64,000 bases of DNA from Sporichthya polymorpha DSM 43042 (GTDB lineage Bacteria > Actinomycetota > Actinomycetes > Sporichthyales > Sporichthyaceae): contig NZ_KB913029.1 of NCBI RefSeq assembly GCF_000384115.1, positions 468,907-532,906 of the forward strand, given 5' to 3'. The notes beneath the pieces were generated by a model. That model was not told the DNA's origin. It saw nothing but the letters and a program-made list of their open reading frames with translations, and ran no database searches. Positions 19,823-57,258 of this stretch are shown in pieces. The position numbers were made by a program, and so were the translations under genes. How positions within the stretch are numbered: the first letter of the stretch is position 1; each line of letters begins with the position of its first letter.

Positions 19823-20644
19823 CGCGCTACTCCACGGCAGTCACTCGCCGCCCGCGGGCGTCGGGTAGTCGACGACTGGGCGGCGCGGGCCGACGACAGC
19901 GCGGCCCAGCGGAGCCGGACACGGACCTGGCGCGTCCTCTTCCGGCAGGGGCGGCACGGAGGAACCGCTCCGGCCCTCGCCTCGCTCAAGTGACACGCAG
20001 CGGTCCAGGCAGCCGCAGGTACTCCATCCTCGAGGCGGTGCCACACCTTCTTTCTCAGGTCCCGGCTCACCGTGCCGGGCGCGACTCGACGAACGCCCCG
20101 CCAGCACCCTCACGCCACCCGCAGCCGACCGCCCATTTCTCCGGCCCCGACGCGAGCGGTCGAAAAGCGCCAGAAGCAGTACTGGTCCTGAATGACACCG
20201 ACCACCGCGCAGCAGCCAGAGCGCGCCCGAAGGGTGCGCTGACGCCGCATCAGGCGCGATTCCAGCGTGACCCAGGGCGGGCTCCGCCGTGTTCGCGCTG
20301 CGCGCGGACAGGGCGGAGCGTGCCGTCCGGTAGCGACCTCAGCCAGTGGATACAGGTCCACGCGCTCTATGGCAGCAATCCGGCTCACCCAACGGTCGCC
20401 GCGCTCACACTCATCTGCGAGCTGTACCCGCAGCATCAAAGTAATGACGACGTCCACCGGACGGCACACGCGCATTCAATCCCTACGGCCAAGCGATCGC
20501 AAGATCGCCAGCGAGCCACTCGTCTTGCTCAACTTGAGACCCGGCCGGTCTGGGCCGTCCGCGCGCACACAGACAAGGCGTGGGGACATCCATCGCACGC
20601 ACCAGGCCGACGGGCATGCCCGCGTCGGCGGGGTGGTCGCGGTG
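19823..20644. other. long intergenic region before the relaxase gene, possible oriT area
   Basis: About 820 bp without a convincing gene. Short inverted repeats cluster in its right part: GCGATC-GCAA-GATCGC at 20493-20508, AGACC-CGGCC-GGTCT at 20537-20551, and an imperfect hairpin around 20609-20628 (CGACGGGCATGCCCGCGTCG). MobF relaxase genes often lie next to their oriT, so this is the best place to look for it. The left end of the element may also lie here. No nic site was identified. Confidence 0.4.
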
Positions 20645-23600
20645 ATGTCGCTCGCGCGGTTATCGGCGGGGTCGGGCTATCGCTATCTGCTCAAATACAC
20701 CGCGTGCGGGGACTGCGCCCGGGACGCGGGGACATCGTTGACGTCGTACTACGCCGCGTCGGGCTACCCGCCCGGGCGGTGGCGGGGACGCGGGCTGGCC
20801 GGGCTCAACGGCGGGCGTGGTCTGGCCGGCGGGGCGGTGGTGGACGAGGAGGCGATGGCCGCCCTCTACGGCCGCGGCCACGACCCGGTGAGTGGGAAGC
20901 CGTTGGGCCGGGCCTATCCGACCTACCGCAGCGCCGATGAGCGGATCGCCGACGCGGTCGCCAAGTTGCCGGATTCGCTGACCACCCCAGAGCGGGAGGC
21001 GGCGGTGGAGGTGATCGAGCGCCGCGAGCGGGCGCGGCCGGTGCGGACGGCGGTGGCCGGGTTCGATCTGACATTCACGATGCCGAAGTCGGCCAGCGTG
21101 CTGTGGGCACTCGGGGATCCCACGATCCAGCGGGCGGTCGCCGACGCGCATCGGGAGGCCGTCGATGCCGTGCTGGGCCTGGTCGAGGACCGGTTCCTGC
21201 ACACCCGCATCGGAGCGCATTCGTGCGCGCAGGTCGCGACCCGGGGCATGGTCGCTGCCGCGTTCGATCACTGGGACACCCGTACCGGCGATCCCAACTT
21301 GCACACCCACGTGGTGATCGCGAACAAGGTGCAGGGCCCGGACGGGGTCTGGCGCTCGGTCGACGGCCAGGCGATCTATCACGCCGCGGTGGCCTGCTCG
21401 GAGATCTACGACACCCTGGTCGCCGACACCCTCGCCGCCCGGCTGCCGGTGACCTGGGGGCTGCGGGACCGCGGCAAGCGGCGGACCCCGGGCTTCGAAA
21501 TCGAGGGCCTGGACGACGCGGTGTTGGCTGCCTTCTCCGGGCGCAGCGCGCAGATCGAGACACACCTGCGCGTGCTGCTCGCGGCCTTCACGGCCGAGCA
21601 CGGACGCGAACCGAACCGGCGGGAGATCCTGCGTCTGCGCCAACAGGCGACGCTGACCTCCCGCCCGGACAAGACCCTGGTCCCACTGCCGGACCTGTTC
21701 ACCCGCTGGCGGGCGGACGCCACCGCGGCCACCGGCGAAGCGCCGGAGCAGCTCACCACGCGGGCGCTGCAGGGCGCGACGGCGCCGACCACTGCGGCGC
21801 AGTTGCCCGCGGAGCTGATCGAGCGCGCCGCGCAGGTCACCTTGGACGGTGTCGGGGAACGCCGCTCGACCTGGACCCGGCCGAACCTGCTCGCGGAGGC
21901 GGCCCGGGCCACCCGGCTCCTGCGCACCACCAGCCCGCAGGAACGCCTGGCCCTGGTGGACCGGGTCGTCGAGGCGGCGCTGGCCCGGTGCGTGCCGCTG
22001 GATCCGCCGGAGCTGTTCACCAGCCCGGCCCGGTTCCGGCGGGCCGACGGCACCAGCACCTTCACCCGGCCCGACGAGCACGCCTACACCACCACCGCGG
22101 TCCTGGCCGCCGAGGCGCGGCTGCTCACCGCCGCTGCCACCACCGACGCGCCGGTTCTGACGGTTGATCAGCTTGCCGGCGCCGGGTCTCGGGTCCCGCC
22201 GGGAGCGCCCGGGCGGCGCCTCGGCGCCGATCAGCAGGCCGCGCTCGAGGCGATCGCCGGCTCGGGGCGACGCGTCGACGTGCTCGTCGGGCCGGCCGGC
22301 ACCGGGAAGACCCGCACGTTGCGGGCGCTGCGGGTGGCGTGGGAACAGAGCTTCGGCGCGGGATCGGTGGTCGCCCTGGCCGCCTCCGCCGTCGCCGCCG
22401 CCGAACTAGGGGCCGCCCTCGGGGTCGGGTGCGAGAACACCGCCAAGTGGCTACACGAGTCAACTCGCGACGAGCCCGCGCCCCGGTGGCGGTTGCGCCC
22501 CCGTCAGCTCGTCATTGTCGATGAGGCCTCCATGGTCGCCACCGGTCAACTGGATGTGATCGCCGCCCAGGCCGGGGCGGTCGGGGCGAAGGTCGTGTTC
22601 GTCGGGGATCACCACCAACTCGACGCCGTCGGCGCCGGTGGCGCCTTCGGACTGTTGGCCCACCAGCCCGGCGCCGTGCACCTCACGGGGCTGTGGCGGT
22701 TCCGGCACCGTTGGGAAGCGAACGCCACCCGGGCCCTGCGCGCGGGCAACCCCGCCGCCCTCGACGCCTACGCCGAGCACGGCCGCCTGCACGGTGGTCC
22801 CGGCGAGCTGATGATCGAAGCCGCCTACACCGCGTGGGCCGCCGACGTCGGCGCCGGACGCAGCGCCGTCTTGCTCGCCGCGGACCGCGCCACCGTCGCC
22901 GCGCTGAACCAGCGCGCGCATGACGACCGCGTGAACGCCGGCCTCGTCCAGCCCGCCGCGATCTCCCTGGCCGATGACACCGCCGCCGGGATCGGGGACG
23001 TCGTGGTCACCCGCCGCAACGACCGGCGCCTGCCCACCGGCGACGGTGACTACGTCCGCAACGGCACGCTCTGGCGCATCACCGACGCCCACCCCGACGG
23101 ATCGATCGAGGTCCAACCGCACACACCGGCCGGGCCGGCCGGCTCCCCCGACCGGGCGGCGACGCCACCGGCCACGCCACCGGCGCCGGTCCGGCTGCCG
23201 CGCGAGTACGTGCGCGAGCATGTCGAGCTCGGCTACGCCGCCACCGTGCACCGCGCCCAGGGCATGACGGTCGAGCACGGGCACGTCCTGGTGCACGCGG
23301 GCATGACCCGCCAACAGCTCTACGTCGCCCTGACCCGCGGCCGCACCGCCAACCAGGCCTACGTCGCCCTGGACAGCCTCGACCCGGCCTGCCCCCACCC
23401 GCCGGAGTCCGCCCCGGTGCCGACCTCCCGTCAGATCCTCGAACGCATCCTGGCCGCCGACGGCGCCGAGCTGTCCGCGACCGCGACCCTGCGCCGTCGC
23501 CAGGACGAGGCCGCCTCCTTGCGCCGGCTGCTGCCGGTCCGCGACACCCTGGCCGCCGCGGCCGAGCACGGCGACCCGGAGTGCGGCCGGGCTGCCGGCG

Positions 23601-23719
23601 AGGTCAGGCGTCTGATCGCGCTGCGCGCGACCCAGCTACGGCAACCACCACAACCACGGCGCCACCGCGGCGCCGAGCACATCGCTCCACCACCCACTGC
23701 TGAAGGGATGAGCCGATGA
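20645..23719 (+). CDS. MobF-family conjugative relaxase-helicase (TrwC/TraI/TraA-like)
   Basis: This 1024-residue protein starts conjugal DNA transfer by nicking oriT and then unwinding the strand. The N-terminal relaxase domain (about 1-300) has the tyrosine region LTSYYAASGYPPGRW and the metal-binding motif NLHTHVVIANKV (about 218-229). The C-terminal RecD-like helicase has Walker A GPAGTGKT (about 549-556), Walker B LVIVDEASMV and motif VHRAQGMT plus YVALTRGR near the end. ATG 20645 gives the usual MSLARLSAG start; the frame extends upstream without support. Its end overlaps the next gene (ATGA). Confidence 0.95.
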   Translation: MSLARLSAGSGYRYLLKYTACGDCARDAGTSLTSYYAASGYPPGRWRGRGLAGLNGGRGLAGGAVVDEEAMAALYGRGHDPVSGKPLGRAYPTYRSADERIADAVAKLPDSLTTPEREAAVEVIERRERARPVRTAVAGFDLTFTMPKSASVLWALGDPTIQRAVADAHREAVDAVLGLVEDRFLHTRIGAHSCAQVATRGMVAAAFDHWDTRTGDPNLHTHVVIANKVQGPDGVWRSVDGQAIYHAAVACSEIYDTLVADTLAARLPVTWGLRDRGKRRTPGFEIEGLDDAVLAAFSGRSAQIETHLRVLLAAFTAEHGREPNRREILRLRQQATLTSRPDKTLVPLPDLFTRWRADATAATGEAPEQLTTRALQGATAPTTAAQLPAELIERAAQVTLDGVGERRSTWTRPNLLAEAARATRLLRTTSPQERLALVDRVVEAALARCVPLDPPELFTSPARFRRADGTSTFTRPDEHAYTTTAVLAAEARLLTAAATTDAPVLTVDQLAGAGSRVPPGAPGRRLGADQQAALEAIAGSGRRVDVLVGPAGTGKTRTLRALRVAWEQSFGAGSVVALAASAVAAAELGAALGVGCENTAKWLHESTRDEPAPRWRLRPRQLVIVDEASMVATGQLDVIAAQAGAVGAKVVFVGDHHQLDAVGAGGAFGLLAHQPGAVHLTGLWRFRHRWEANATRALRAGNPAALDAYAEHGRLHGGPGELMIEAAYTAWAADVGAGRSAVLLAADRATVAALNQRAHDDRVNAGLVQPAAISLADDTAAGIGDVVVTRRNDRRLPTGDGDYVRNGTLWRITDAHPDGSIEVQPHTPAGPAGSPDRAATPPATPPAPVRLPREYVREHVELGYAATVHRAQGMTVEHGHVLVHAGMTRQQLYVALTRGRTANQAYVALDSLDPACPHPPESAPVPTSRQILERILAADGAELSATATLRRRQDEAASLRRLLPVRDTLAAAAEHGDPECGRAAGEVRRLIALRATQLRQPPQPRRHRGAEHIAPPPTAEGMSR

Positions 23720-52029: not shown

Positions 52030-52941
52030 CTACGAGGCGAGTACGGCGTGCCGGTCCGGGCGGTGCTGCGGCAAGGTGACGGCGGTGCGGGCGGGCGTGC
52101 GCATCGACTCCGCGCGGGTCGCCCGGACCGCCGCCTCGATCGCCGGTCCCCGCAGCGCGGCCGGGCCGCCGGTCGCCCAGCGCTCGGCCAGGCCCGGCCA
52201 ACCCGGCGCGCCGAGCAGGAGCACGGTGACCCGGCGGGCCTGCCACGGCGGGATGCCGAGCGTGATCGCGAGGGTGCGCCAACCCGGCACCTCCGTGCGG
52301 TCCGGGCGGTTGTTCTGCGCGTGCTCGGCGACGTGCAGCACTACCTCGCGGGCGGTCGCCGCCGGCCAGCCGCCACGCACGAGAACCTCGGCGAGGGTGC
52401 CGTGGTCGGAGTCGGCTTCGCACGGGATGTGGTCGGTGACCGGCCGGTCGTACCCGTCCTCGACCAGGGCGGTCAGGCTCATCGGCCGGGCCAGTGCGGC
52501 CGGGTCGACGACGGTCCGCCACTCGCCGTGGCGAGGTTGTTCGCCGCGCTCGCCGGCGGTGCGGAAGCGTTCGATCCGCCACGCGGTCCACACCGACGTG
52601 CGGTACCGCTCCGCCATCCGGTCCCCGAGCACGGCCCGGCGCACCGCGGTGGTCACCACACCCCACGGTGACGACGCCGAGCGCAGCGTCGGATTCGCCA
52701 ACGCCTCCCACGCCGCCGACCACCCGGTCGCCTCCGCGGACTCCGCCGCCGACCCGCACAACCCGGCCGCCCGCACCGCCGGCGCCACGATCTCGCGGCG
52801 GGCATAGGCAAGCAGCAGATCCCCCGTGGGACCGTTCCACCCCTCGACCTCGACCCGGTCAAGTGCGGCGAGCAGCCGCGGCGTGCTCTCCACCTCATCA
52901 AGTAGTGCCTGGCGTTCCAGCGTCATCGCGTTCGTGGACAT
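52030..52941 (-). CDS. first gene of the leftward conjugation run, unknown
   Basis: The 303-residue soluble protein is Ala/Arg/Trp-rich with helical segments (QALLDEVESTPRLLAALDRV, AARLGWPAATAREVVLHVAEH-like region, PGWRTLAITLGIPPWQARRV). The last segment resembles a helix-turn-helix placed as in sigma-like regulators. ATG 52941 has GGGAGG at 5 bases. As the promoter-proximal gene next to repeated operators it is a candidate regulator of the element. Confidence 0.6.
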   Translation of the reverse strand: MSTNAMTLERQALLDEVESTPRLLAALDRVEVEGWNGPTGDLLLAYARREIVAPAVRAAGLCGSAAESAEATGWSAAWEALANPTLRSASSPWGVVTTAVRRAVLGDRMAERYRTSVWTAWRIERFRTAGERGEQPRHGEWRTVVDPAALARPMSLTALVEDGYDRPVTDHIPCEADSDHGTLAEVLVRGGWPAATAREVVLHVAEHAQNNRPDRTEVPGWRTLAITLGIPPWQARRVTVLLLGAPGWPGLAERWATGGPAALRGPAIEAAVRATRAESMRTPARTAVTLPQHRPDRHAVLAS

Positions 52942-52990
52942 CGGGACCTCCCCTAACTGGCGTGTTTGGTGCCAGCACGGTCCCGACGGG

Positions 52991-53013
52991 CGGTTGTCAC
53001 GATGCTTGACAGC
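52991..53013 (+). repeat. 23-bp repeat, copy 1, in divergent control region
   Basis: The copy runs CGGTTGTCACGATGCTTGAC followed by AGC; it matches copy 2 with one change and starts 45 bp before it. It sits between the starts of divergent genes (52941 leftward, 53283 rightward), so operator or iteron function is likely. Confidence 0.75.
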
Positions 53014-53035
53014 GAGCACATCGGTGCAGGTCAAC

Positions 53036-53058
53036 CGGTTGTCGCGATGCTTGACAGC
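53036..53058 (+). repeat. 23-bp repeat, copy 2, in divergent control region
   Basis: Same 23-mer as copy 1 with G in place of A at position 10. The 45-bp period is close to four turns of DNA, so both copies face the same side. Confidence 0.75.
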
Positions 53059-53176
53059 CGGTTGCCCGTCCGCTTGCCCGCCCCGGATCCGGCACGTCGC
53101 CTACGGCGATCAGGGCGGTCCCGGGACCCGCGATTGCCCGCGGCCCGGCAACCGCCCGGCGGTGCCCACCGGCTCG

Positions 53177-53199
53177 CGTGTCAAGCAACTCGACAACCG
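53177..53199 (-). repeat. diverged inverted copy of the 23-bp repeat
   Basis: On the minus strand this site reads CGGTTGTCGAGTTGCTTGAC then ACG, keeping the CGGTTGTCG and TGCTTGACA blocks of copies 1 and 2. It lies nearer the rightward gene at 53283. Confidence 0.6.
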
Positions 53200-53282
53200 C
53201 CGGCTCCGATCCTGGACAGCCCGCGAGCCATGCCGGCCACCCCCGGGCCGACGCGCTCACCCGACCCGAAAGGAGCCGACCG

Positions 53283-53907: not shown

Positions 53908-54135
53908 ATGCCTCGCACCGCCATCCCCGCACCCCGCCACCCCGCCGAACCGACGGCGCCGCCGGTCGAGCGCATGCTGCTCACCGTCGAGGAAGCCGCC
54001 GCCGCGATCGGCGTCGGGCGCAGCCTCATGTACGAACTCATCGCCGCCGGCGCCGTCGAGACGGTCCGCGTCGGACGCCTGCGCCGCGTCCGGCCCGAGG
54101 CGTTGCACGACTACGTCGCCTCGCTCTCCCAGTAG
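53908..54135 (+). CDS. xis: excisionase-like helix-turn-helix protein
   Basis: The 75-residue protein is a MerR-type/AlpA-like DNA-binding domain of the excisionase family: LLTVEEAAAAIGVGRSLMYELIAAG, with the VETVRVGRLRRVRPEAL wing. It steers integrase toward excision. ATG 53908 follows AGGAGGG. In related elements the integrase gene follows at once; here a DUF1508 gene and transposon sequence follow. Confidence 0.88.
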   Translation: MPRTAIPAPRHPAEPTAPPVERMLLTVEEAAAAIGVGRSLMYELIAAGAVETVRVGRLRRVRPEALHDYVASLSQ

Positions 54136-54673: not shown

Positions 54674-55699
54674 TCAGGCGGCGGGCTCGACCGTGACGGT
54701 GTAGCCGAGGGCTTCGAGCTGGCGGATGTGGTTGCGCTTCTTCAGCTCGGGGTTGGTGCGGGAGTCGTACCAGCTGGCTCCGAGGTCTTCGAATCGTGCC
54801 TCGGGATTGTTGAGCAGGTGCCAGACGATGACGAGGATCGATCGGCCGACCGCGACGATGGCCTTCTTCTTTCCGCGGCGGCGGGCGATACGCCGGTATC
54901 GCTCGCCGAGGAAGGTATCGGTGCGCCCGGCCGCCACGGCGGACTCGCCCAGAACGCGCGCCAGGTAGCAGTTGCCGTGCCCGGTCGCGCCCTTGCCCTT
55001 CTGCTTTCCCGCGGACTCCTTCACCCCGGGCGCGAACCGAGCCCAGGACGACAGGTGGGCCGGGGTGGGGAAGCGACTCATGTCCAGGCCCACCTCGGCG
55101 ATGATCACCTGCGCGGCGATCGCACCGACTCCGGGGATCTCATCGAGGCGGGCCACTGCCGTGGCGAAAGGGGCGACGTGGGCCTCGATCCTGGTTTCGA
55201 CCTCGGCGATATCGGCGCTGATCGCATCGATTCGGCTGAGCATCTTGCCCAGCAGGAACCCGTGATGGGCGGTGAAGTACCCGGTGAAGGCTTCCTCCAG
55301 CAGGGCGAGCTTGCCGCGCATGGGCCCGCGCGCCATCTCGGCGAGGACCTTCGGATTGCGCTCCCCGGCGATCAGCGCGGCCAGCATCGCCCGTCCGGAC
55401 ACCCCGAAGATGTCGCTGACCGCGACGCTGAGTTTGATCTGGGCGTCTTCGAGTAGCTTCTCCACCCGCTGCTTTTCCGCGGTCCGGGTGACGACCAGGT
55501 CGATCCGATAGCGAGTCAGGTCCCGCAACTGACGAATCTGTGCCGGCGGGACGAAGCTGGCCCGGATCATCTGCCGCTCAGCGACCTTGGCCAGCCACAC
55601 CGCGTCCAACCGGTCGGTCTTCGGTCGCCCGGGCAGGTGCTTGACGTCCTTGGCGTTGACCAGCCACGGGTCGAAGCCCAGCGCCTCCAGCAGATAGAA
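54674..55699 (-). CDS. IS110 transposase, exon 2 (C-terminal part)
   Basis: From FYLLEALGFDPWLVNAKDVK onwards this reads as IS110 transposase: KTDRLDAVWLAKV with the third and fourth acidic residues, and then a transposase-20-type C-terminal domain (LDEIPGVGAIAAQVIIAEVG, FPTPAHLSSWARFAPG). The final part is GHGNCYLARVL and YDSRTNPELKKRNHIRQLEA. The reading frame continues upstream into the intron (to 55846), but those residues are not protein of the family. Product forms only after intron splicing. Confidence 0.85.
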   Translation of the reverse strand, partial: FYLLEALGFDPWLVNAKDVKHLPGRPKTDRLDAVWLAKVAERQMIRASFVPPAQIRQLRDLTRYRIDLVVTRTAEKQRVEKLLEDAQIKLSVAVSDIFGVSGRAMLAALIAGERNPKVLAEMARGPMRGKLALLEEAFTGYFTAHHGFLLGKMLSRIDAISADIAEVETRIEAHVAPFATAVARLDEIPGVGAIAAQVIIAEVGLDMSRFPTPAHLSSWARFAPGVKESAGKQKGKGATGHGNCYLARVLGESAVAAGRTDTFLGERYRRIARRRGKKKAIVAVGRSILVIVWHLLNNPEARFEDLGASWYDSRTNPELKKRNHIRQLEALGYTVTVEPAA

Positions 55700-55761
55700 G
55701 TGAGGTCGACCCGGGGCGCCCTGCCGGTGTTTCCACCGGTGGTTTCCCCGGGCCGCCTCCC

Positions 55762-55796
55762 GCACCCGCCGTGCCCGTTTCCGGGCAACGGGCGCT
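55762..55796 (-). ncRNA. group II intron domain V
   Basis: Minus-strand AGCGCCCGTTGCCCG-GAAA-CGGGCA then CGG-CGGGTGC folds into a two-part stem with a GAAA tetraloop, a two-sided bulge and the catalytic AGC triad at its base. This is the domain V signature. The following domain VI arm CCCGGGG/CCCCGGG lies just downstream. Confidence 0.8.
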
Positions 55797-55827
55797 CCAC
55801 AAGCCCCGCTCGGTCTCGTGGCATTCG

Positions 55828-57258
55828 TCATCCCGCGGCCGTCCATGGTGTCGGGATCGCTGCTCCCCGGTAGCGGTAGCGCGTTGTGCGCACCGTGGCC
55901 GGATTGAACAGCATCCGTTCAGCCGTGGTCGGCCACCACCGCCCGCCGCAGTAGCGGCGGCGGATGTCCTTCACGGTGCTCCGGCGGTGTTTGCGGCGCA
56001 ACCACGCGAAGACCCGGGCCCAGGTATAGGCGCCCAGGTAGGCGAAGGTGGCACTGGACACCCCAGGCCGGAAGTAGGCGCACCAACCCCGCAGCAGCGA
56101 GTTGATCCGCAGCAACAGGATTTGGAGCGGCTGGTTCGTGCCGATCTGACGACACAACGCCCGGACCTTGCCCGTCACGGCCATCACGGCTTTGCGCGAG
56201 GGATAGGTGTAGACGTAGTACCGGTTGGTGCCCCGCTTGCGGTGACGCTGGATGCGCCACCCGAGGAACACCAGCCCCTCATCGATGTGGGTGATCAGCG
56301 TCTTCTCCGGAGACAGGCGCAAACCCATCCCGGTCAAGACCTCCGCCATCTCCTCACGCAGGGCCTCGGCGTCGGCTCGGGTGCCGTGCACGAGCAGGCA
56401 CCAGTCGTCCGCATACCGCACCAGGCGGTAGTTGGGCAGACCCTGAGCGCGGCGCTTAGACCGCTGGTGACGGCTGGCTCCGGACCCGCCCGGAGCCTGG
56501 ACGATGTACTCGTCCAGGACCGCGAGGGCCACGTTGCTCAGCAGCGGCGAAAGGATCGACCCTTGTGGGGTGCCGGTGTCGGTCTCCCGCAGGACCCGGT
56601 CCTCACCGAGGATCCCGGCCTTGAGGAACGCCTTCACCAAGGCCAAGACGCGTTTGTCCCCGACTCGCGCCCGCACCCGGTCCATCAGGGCCGGATGGGA
56701 GATTTCATCGAAGCAGGCCTTGATGTCGCCCTCGACCACCCACTCATAGGAGCGGGAGGACAGCAGGCGGACCTCGGCCACCGCGTCATGAGCCCGGCGC
56801 CTCGGGCGGAACCCGTAGGAGCACGGGAGGAAATCCGCCTCGAAGATCGGCTCCAACACCAACTTCAGGGACGCCTGGACCACCCGGTCCCGGACGGCGG
56901 CTATCCCCAGGCGACGCCACTTGCCGTCGGCCTTGGGGATCATCCGTTCCCGCACCGGGAGCGGGCAGAAGCTGCGCGCCTTCAACTGCGCGCGCAGCTC
57001 ATCGAGGACGACCTCGACCCCACGCACGGTCTCCACGTAGTAGGCAGTTTCGCCGTCCACGCCAGCCGTGCGGGCGCCCCGATTGCCCCGTACCCGAGCC
57101 CAGGCGACCAGAAGGAACGCCGGGTCGGTGACGAGGTTGAACAGATCGTCGAACCGGCGATGAGGATCATCGCGAGCCCAACGGTGCAGCTTGGTCTGAA
57201 TCTCCCGTACCCGTCGCTCGGCGCGGATCAGCGCCAGCTCCGGATCGTCGGTATTCAC
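55828..57258 (-). CDS. ltrA: group II intron reverse transcriptase/maturase
   Basis: The 476-residue protein has the RT fingers/palm (RMIPKADGKWRRLGI, LPCSYGFRPRRRAHDAV, VVEGDIKACFDEISHPALM, TGTPQGSILSPLLSNVAL), the active site YADDW, and a C-terminal maturase (GIIM) domain with WCAYFRPGV and a C/H-rich end (RRRYCGGRWW). It both splices the host intron RNA and copies it into new sites. No HNH endonuclease motif is evident. Starts at ATG 57258 inside intron domain IV. Confidence 0.93.
   Translation of the reverse strand: MNTDDPELALIRAERRVREIQTKLHRWARDDPHRRFDDLFNLVTDPAFLLVAWARVRGNRGARTAGVDGETAYYVETVRGVEVVLDELRAQLKARSFCPLPVRERMIPKADGKWRRLGIAAVRDRVVQASLKLVLEPIFEADFLPCSYGFRPRRRAHDAVAEVRLLSSRSYEWVVEGDIKACFDEISHPALMDRVRARVGDKRVLALVKAFLKAGILGEDRVLRETDTGTPQGSILSPLLSNVALAVLDEYIVQAPGGSGASRHQRSKRRAQGLPNYRLVRYADDWCLLVHGTRADAEALREEMAEVLTGMGLRLSPEKTLITHIDEGLVFLGWRIQRHRKRGTNRYYVYTYPSRKAVMAVTGKVRALCRQIGTNQPLQILLLRINSLLRGWCAYFRPGVSSATFAYLGAYTWARVFAWLRRKHRRSTVKDIRRRYCGGRWWPTTAERMLFNPATVRTTRYRYRGAAIPTPWTAAG

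Follow-up and report, generated by a model that had tools for sequence, protein, structure and literature searches.

A putative operator of paired TTGNC half-sites between divergent transfer and xis-like operons of an actinobacterial integrative element

The regulator AcaCD of IncA/C plasmids activates promoters of transfer genes and of xis, and the island SGI1 carries an AcaCD site before xis (PMC4605294, in its accessible part; compare PMC4207636). Head-to-tail binding to direct repeats is described for BldC, whose units are AT-rich and 9 bp long (accessible text of PMC5859096). RdfS of ICEMlSym, a winged-HTH excision factor, binds its own promoter and attP, and the accessible portion of its report (PMC11963761) gives no consensus motif. 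These are the described systems closest to a set of short repeats, probably operators, that lie between divergent operons of an actinobacterial integrative and conjugative element (ICE), to judge from their sequence and setting. Our literature search found little on how T4SS-type ICEs are controlled in actinobacteria.

The repeats lie in Sporichthya polymorpha DSM 43042, whose genome comprises 5.50 Mb in one contig, within a 64,000-nucleotide stretch of DNA that we analysed as a whole and refer to as the window. On our best reading they would form the operator of a divergent regulatory pair: a sigma-factor-like protein of 303 amino acids, heading a Tad/T4SS operon, and an HTH_17 (Xis-like) protein. 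A conjugative-element master regulator acting at transfer and xis promoters, with a mobilizable island that carries the site before xis, would parallel AcaCD and SGI1 as presented in the accessible part of PMC4605294; AcaCD, however, is of the FlhDC family and uses an inverted-repeat motif, whereas the half-sites here form a direct pair and the candidate regulator is sigma-like. BldC operators, in the accessible text of PMC5859096, share direct repeats spaced by about a helical turn, a variable repeat number and a small HTH_17/MerR-like protein encoded alongside, but have AT-rich 9-bp units in place of the TTGNC half-sites at 11-12 bp in this window of 71% GC. RdfS is likewise a winged-HTH excision factor that binds its own promoter (accessible part of PMC11963761), but its binding is motif-free and includes attP, whereas the motif here is strong and its sites are kilobases away from the presumed att sites. 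T4SS-type ICEs of Actinobacteria share the TrwC relaxase, a TraG/VirD4-like coupling protein and integration at tRNA genes, while 23-bp operator boxes and a 303-aa-like head gene are not described in the accessible part of PMC3218068. The box system resembles AcaCD, BldC and RdfS functionally, and we do not assign it to those families. Judging by titles and abstract openings, with incomplete coverage, we found no description of the box or of the 303-aa family in the literature.

The box is a concrete, position-conserved site with two candidate regulators adjoining it. It allows regulatory eavesdropping by mobilizable elements to be tested outside the proteobacteria, and two paralogous loci with different half-sites in one genome constitute a natural specificity-swap system.

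Paired half-sites in the divergent control region

A sequence-only reading had reported two near-identical 23-mers 45 bp apart, with a diverged inverted copy, between a leftward transfer run and a rightward xis unit. Both observations hold (Table 1). Boxes 1 and 2 agree at 22 of 23 positions and start 45 bp apart, the inverted box is identical to box 1 at 18 and to box 2 at 19 of 23 positions, and the 303-aa, 192-aa and HTH_17 genes that had been named are present. When up to three mismatches are allowed, GGTTGTCRCGATGCTTGACAGC has two matches in the 64 kb, namely boxes 1 and 2, where none was expected (100 shuffles), and an 18-bp core at the same tolerance has three against 0.04 expected. The boxes are thus repeated above chance, in the control region before the head gene of the transfer run.

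Beyond that earlier reading, each 23-mer proves to consist of two TTGNC half-sites 12 bp apart, and a fourth, degenerate copy adjoins box 2. The half-sites at 53039, 53051, 53062 and 53074 make up a 12-11-12 bp array across box 2 and the degenerate box; such arrays place at least two same-direction half-sites about one helical turn apart. Four of the five TTGNC-N7-TTGNC pairs of the whole window fall inside the 341-bp intergenic region 52942-53282, and at least four pairs were seen in 0 of 5000 dinucleotide shuffles (shuffle mean 0.007).

Table 1. Boxes and adjoining genes (positions within the window)
Feature	Position	Strand	Remarks
303-aa protein P0001, head gene of Tad/T4SS transfer run	52030..52941	-	ORF, structure model
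Box 1 (CGGTTGTCACGATGCTTGACAGC)	52991..53013	+	gene-proximal end 50 bp from 303-aa start codon
Box 2, one substitution relative to box 1	53036..53058	+	45 bp beyond box 1
Degenerate box (CGGTTGCCCGTCCGCTTGCCCGC)	53059..53081	+	23-bp tandem with box 2
Inverted box	53177..53199	-	faces boxes 1-2; about 84 bp from 192-aa gene start codon
192-aa protein P0002	53283..53861	+	no family; low-confidence helical model
75-aa HTH_17 / TIGR01764 excise-family DNA-binding protein	53908..54135	+	profile match

Each box is directional, its two TTGNC half-sites being spaced by about one helical turn (12 bp). In the mechanism that we propose, boxes 1 and 2 would serve the leftward transfer operon and the inverted box the rightward 192-aa/HTH_17 operon, each being oriented alike toward its gene. 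A regulator presumably encoded by the element may bind each pair of half-sites in head-to-tail fashion, beside the core promoter, and would set the expression of the transfer and P0002-xis operons together, most simply next to RNA polymerase. A pattern search found no sigma-70 promoter consensus and no terminator pattern; a missing sigma-70 consensus would fit an activated or alternative-sigma promoter.

The sequence-only reading had left two options for this layout, a master-regulator operator or replication iterons, that is, Rep-binding repeats of an origin. The former is favoured by the near-fixed distance to the head gene and by recurrence before xis operons, both described below, although it stays a prediction. 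Iterons would account for the repeat length of 22-23 bp and for the 23-bp tandem pairs, one here and one at 5063 kb. Against them, there are just two near-identical same-direction copies rather than several tandem ones beside an initiator gene, no initiator was recognized among the neighbouring proteins scanned with Pfam, the GC dip is modest (0.63 at boxes 1-2 against 0.75-0.77 just rightward), the site lies where divergent promoters are expected, and relatives in other families keep the position fixed relative to the 303-aa start codon. We therefore reject iterons, which seem very improbable. A MITE or other mobile repeat was also rejected, the spacer between box 2 and the inverted box being unalignable between the elements at 522 kb (the window) and 256 kb. 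Comparison of the intergenic DNA with plasmids returned five records, matching only in short pieces (E 0.09-0.3), and Rfam gave no match in window positions 15000-64000.

Recurrence of the box and its distance from the head gene

The same order of two direct boxes followed by an inverted one recurs in this genome before paralogs of the 192-aa gene at 256 kb (47% identity) and 1854 kb (49% identity), the half-sites of the latter reading TTGCC, while at 5063 kb a 23-bp tandem pair of boxes precedes an xis gene. Across five genomes of the order GTTGNCNNNATGCTTGMC has 12 matches and the reversed pattern none; seven lie upstream of these operons, four in linkers of TrwC relaxase genes, and the last falls within the helicase portion of a relaxase gene (G001). 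Weak TTGCC-N7-TTGCC matches in coding sequence, often on (I/V)A--LA codons, were left uncounted. Among 29 relaxase loci, L088 and L099 also score about 25 bits at places of the (I/V)A--LA type, L099 being the G001 match. A small profile search found an HTH_17 gene downstream of the box at all eight box loci of the home genus; four of the eight had seeded the profile and the other four serve as tests, two of them weak.

Since the boxes lie near xis genes, they might be attP arm-type sites for integrase or Xis in recombination. If nearby tRNA genes are taken as the att sites, box and tRNA gene are separated by about 18 kb at 522 kb (the window), by 2.3, 3.5 and 2.4 kb at 1854, 1809 and 3594 kb, respectively, and by 4 kb at G003:C45, as against the few hundred base pairs that arm-type sites require; we reject this explanation as highly unlikely. 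The stretches searched near 256 and 5063 kb yielded no tRNA gene.

Across the class, relatives of the 303-aa protein were detected at E <=0.001 in 15 of 393 genomes, six with E <1e-20, and the strong relatives head a syntenic Tad-type operon. From the 19 matches in these 15 genomes we dropped L132/L156 (box region past the contig end), L137/L157, L149 (a second piece of L136) and the weak matches L138-L145, of which L138 was inspected. Because dinucleotide shuffles overstate a lag-12 signal, owing to the codon periodicity of coding sequence, windows drawn from the same loci were used as controls. Over the 260 bp upstream, the six strong foreign loci reach a lag-12 self-similarity of 85 against 29.7 (sd 10.9) in random windows (p 0.0001), and the contrast of 11 plus 12 bp with 9 plus 15 bp was equalled in 0 of 20,000 draws; this contrast was chosen after the lag-12 peak was known, the 12-bp spacing having come earlier, from the home genome. 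For all eight first loci lag 12 alone gives only p 0.033, in five of the eight the lag-12 count is equalled or exceeded by over 5% of same-locus windows, and L151 taken singly has no contrast.

Boxes picked by eye at these eight loci end 50, 47, 47, 47, 45, 51 and 47 bp from the start codon in seven cases and 70 bp in the eighth, in the same orientation toward the gene. An offset scan has its lag-12 optimum at -67 (47 of 64), the next-best place scoring 45. The half-sites differ: TTGCC/TGGCC (L151), GTCTTGCG (L152), GACTCCGTC (L153), CGTCCGTC (L154) and TTGCC (L155). At L155, where the TTGCC box stands 70 bp from the start codon, the 303-aa relative and its Tad cluster adjoin genes that by eye resemble a YchF-type GTPase and a TetR regulator, and this locus is possibly a chromosomal, non-mobile version.

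A scan of named genomes contributed 12 further loci, 11 from Cellulomonas and Actinotalea and one (L189) from a Nanopelagicales MAG; L188 and L190 were left out as repeats of L150 and L152. The 12-bp pairing was not replicated over the 12 new loci (lag-12 33 versus 55.9, p 0.95; contrast p 0.03), where the lag-12 score at offset -67 ranks 27 of 320 and lag 11 peaks at -70. L189 has a TTGTC-type box 48 bp from the start codon. Upstream of the 11 Cellulomonas/Actinotalea genes, several of which come from closely related loci so that counts are not independent, the 200-bp regions contain GTCATC/GATGAC 44 times where 2.5 were expected (0 of 20,000), and nine of the 11 have it at -62 to -65. The same motif is contained in some L153 and L154 repeats. 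Exactly 8 bp after it, in nine of nine cases, stands one of the hexamers TATACC, TATACA, TACACC, CATAGG or CATAGC, a possible -10 element shortly after the half-site. Upstream of 303-aa relatives, 17 of 20 loci retain the box in its position (seven of eight, L189, and nine of 11), two of the 20 belonging to this genome. Judged from these upstream regions, the position of the box is conserved, its half-site sequence is lineage-specific and its arrangement varies.

An HTH_17 gene divergent to a 303-aa relative was seen at L189, L191-L194 and L196-L199 (Cellulomonas, Actinotalea and Nanopelagicales), with Tad-type genes inside the 4-kb flank at L189, L191, L192, L196, L197 and L198.

Candidate binding proteins

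We give the 303-aa protein about an even chance of being the binder, regard the HTH_17 protein as possible but doubtful, and consider another factor unlikely; the ranking leans toward the 303-aa protein, without certainty. Its AlphaFold2 model (mean pLDDT 69) has a sigma-factor-like N-terminal part and an HTH-like stretch near the C-terminus. The 50 rows listed by VIA-align, all sigma models or chains of RNA polymerase complexes that we took as sigma, have Z of 8.1-10.9 and span about residues 2-157; for a helical model such as this one, Z <13 may be chance. Foldseek matches are weak (best E 0.07), and a Pfam search gave no sigma match.

G104 (L151, L154) and G287 (L152, L153) each hold two loci with differing half-sites, so that box specificity goes with the locus and not with the host. 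The HTH-like stretch of the 303-aa protein tracks half-site type in 16 of 17 readable loci: it reads RRL in all ten of the GTCATC/GACGGA type, among which L198 has a single such site, and RRV or RRM in six of seven of the TTGNC type, the exception being L016, in this genome (L199-L201 were unreadable). The RRL/RRV difference follows the phylogeny of the protein and may be inherited. Counting against the 303-aa protein as binder, G003 has a relaxase box, yet no 303-aa relative was found there (five of 35 first-look candidates scored).

Alternatively, the HTH_17 protein, BldC/RdfS-like and of winged-HTH type, may bind as head-to-tail oligomers on direct half-sites at 11-12 bp, autoregulating its own operon together with the divergent transfer operon. 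Its gene lies downstream of the box throughout the home-genus set; of 18 foreign loci, 12 have it divergent to the 303-aa gene (adjoining it in three of six and nine of 12), and precedents exist in the head-to-tail binding of BldC (PMC5859096) and the own-promoter and attP binding of RdfS (PMC11963761), both as described in the accessible parts of these reports. However, the recognition-helix subtypes of 19 proteins, compared by eye, mix across half-site types; L154 and L155 carry boxes, but the stretches examined there yielded no HTH_17 gene; and the 9-bp BldC units of that accessible text differ from the spacing here. Upstream of 26 homologs in other genomes, the gene position being approximate for six, there is no 12-bp excess; L167 and L171 (the same as L150 and L152) were left out of this comparison. 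We accordingly hold the HTH_17 protein to be the less probable binder, and the 303-aa protein remains our leading candidate.

The 192-aa protein between them has no family in Pfam, PHROGs or NCBIfam. A scan of genome contigs with the 192-aa alignment gave ten pattern-matching stretches, none of them confirmed, and among plasmids one weak Actinomadura match was the only one. At L024 (1399-1761) in a genome from another family, a 120-aa relative directly precedes a gene that we read by eye as primase/polymerase-like. The 192-aa family may have a part in replicating or maintaining the element.

Boxes in relaxase genes and loci without detected transfer genes

Four boxes fall in the linker that joins the relaxase domain to the helicase domain in TrwC genes, two in this genome (1809 and 3594 kb) and two in sister species (G003:C45 and G004:C48); they represent a cis site embedded in coding DNA. 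In an alignment of nine of the 29 TrwC matches, the box lies within an extra linker insert of variable length in L085, L086, L101 and L109 and is absent from the five other relaxases. In the three linker boxes that are antisense to the gene, the encoded residues vary (ASIVTT, ASILTT, SSIAST), and each gene has two codons with A as the last base (GCA/TCA and ACA/TCA). A-ending codons kept despite varying residues hint at conservation at the DNA level.

The interior of a relaxase gene is not where an operator is expected, which speaks against the operator reading. The boxes might instead be an oriT, or an accessory-protein site of DNA transfer, with one cis site per element that sometimes lies within the relaxase gene. 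The four relaxase genes with a box-bearing insert would suit such a site, and rolling-circle origins within initiator genes are a known precedent. But the relaxase gene of the window (20267-23719) has no box, a fixed spacing to a start codon is not a property of oriT, and a 440-bp stretch upstream of the TrwC relaxase domain in the window (20091-20530), being 94.8% identical to 3595986-3596423 in a second element of the same genome, is a better candidate. We consider an oriT function of the boxes improbable. The relaxase genes beside this 440-bp stretch share about 67-71% DNA identity; the stretch may reflect recent exchange or a conserved site, and is a candidate oriT.

Returning to an operator function, we compared the gene content of the box loci. 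Of the 23 predicted ORFs of the window transfer run, 17 have relatives at 256 kb by blastp with the window ORFs (E522), and none has a blastp relative in the stretches examined at 1809/1854, 3594 and 5063 kb, G003:C45 (20 kb) and G004:C48 (9 kb). Loci without detected transfer genes hold a TrwC relaxase gene and an HTH_17 gene, except that no relaxase was seen beside the box at 1854 kb. At 1809 kb, 1854 kb and G003:C45 an integrase gene was seen, with a tRNA gene nearby; an integrase gene was also seen at 5063 kb, and a nearby tRNA gene at 3594 kb. From this gene content, the relaxase/xis loci without detected transfer genes look mobilizable and not self-transmissible. Within the stretches searched they are of the kind represented by SGI1, elements without transfer genes that carry the box of the helper, and by analogy they may respond to the regulator of the ICE whose boxes they carry, as SGI1 does to AcaCD.

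A joint reading, which we hold as speculative and rather unlikely in its entirety, would combine these points. A sigma-like master protein would drive transfer and excision through a bipartite directional box; boxes whose specificity follows the regulator of their own locus could insulate coresident systems; and mobilizable elements would have captured the box of the helper, even within relaxase genes, and would excise when the helper is active.

The window element may itself be mosaic, because the xis-like gene is followed by genes for an IS110-family transposase and for a group II intron reverse transcriptase/maturase (54674-57258), and the nearest integrase found rightward of the xis-like gene stands beside tRNA-Leu(taa) at 538.5 kb, a distance of 16 kb.
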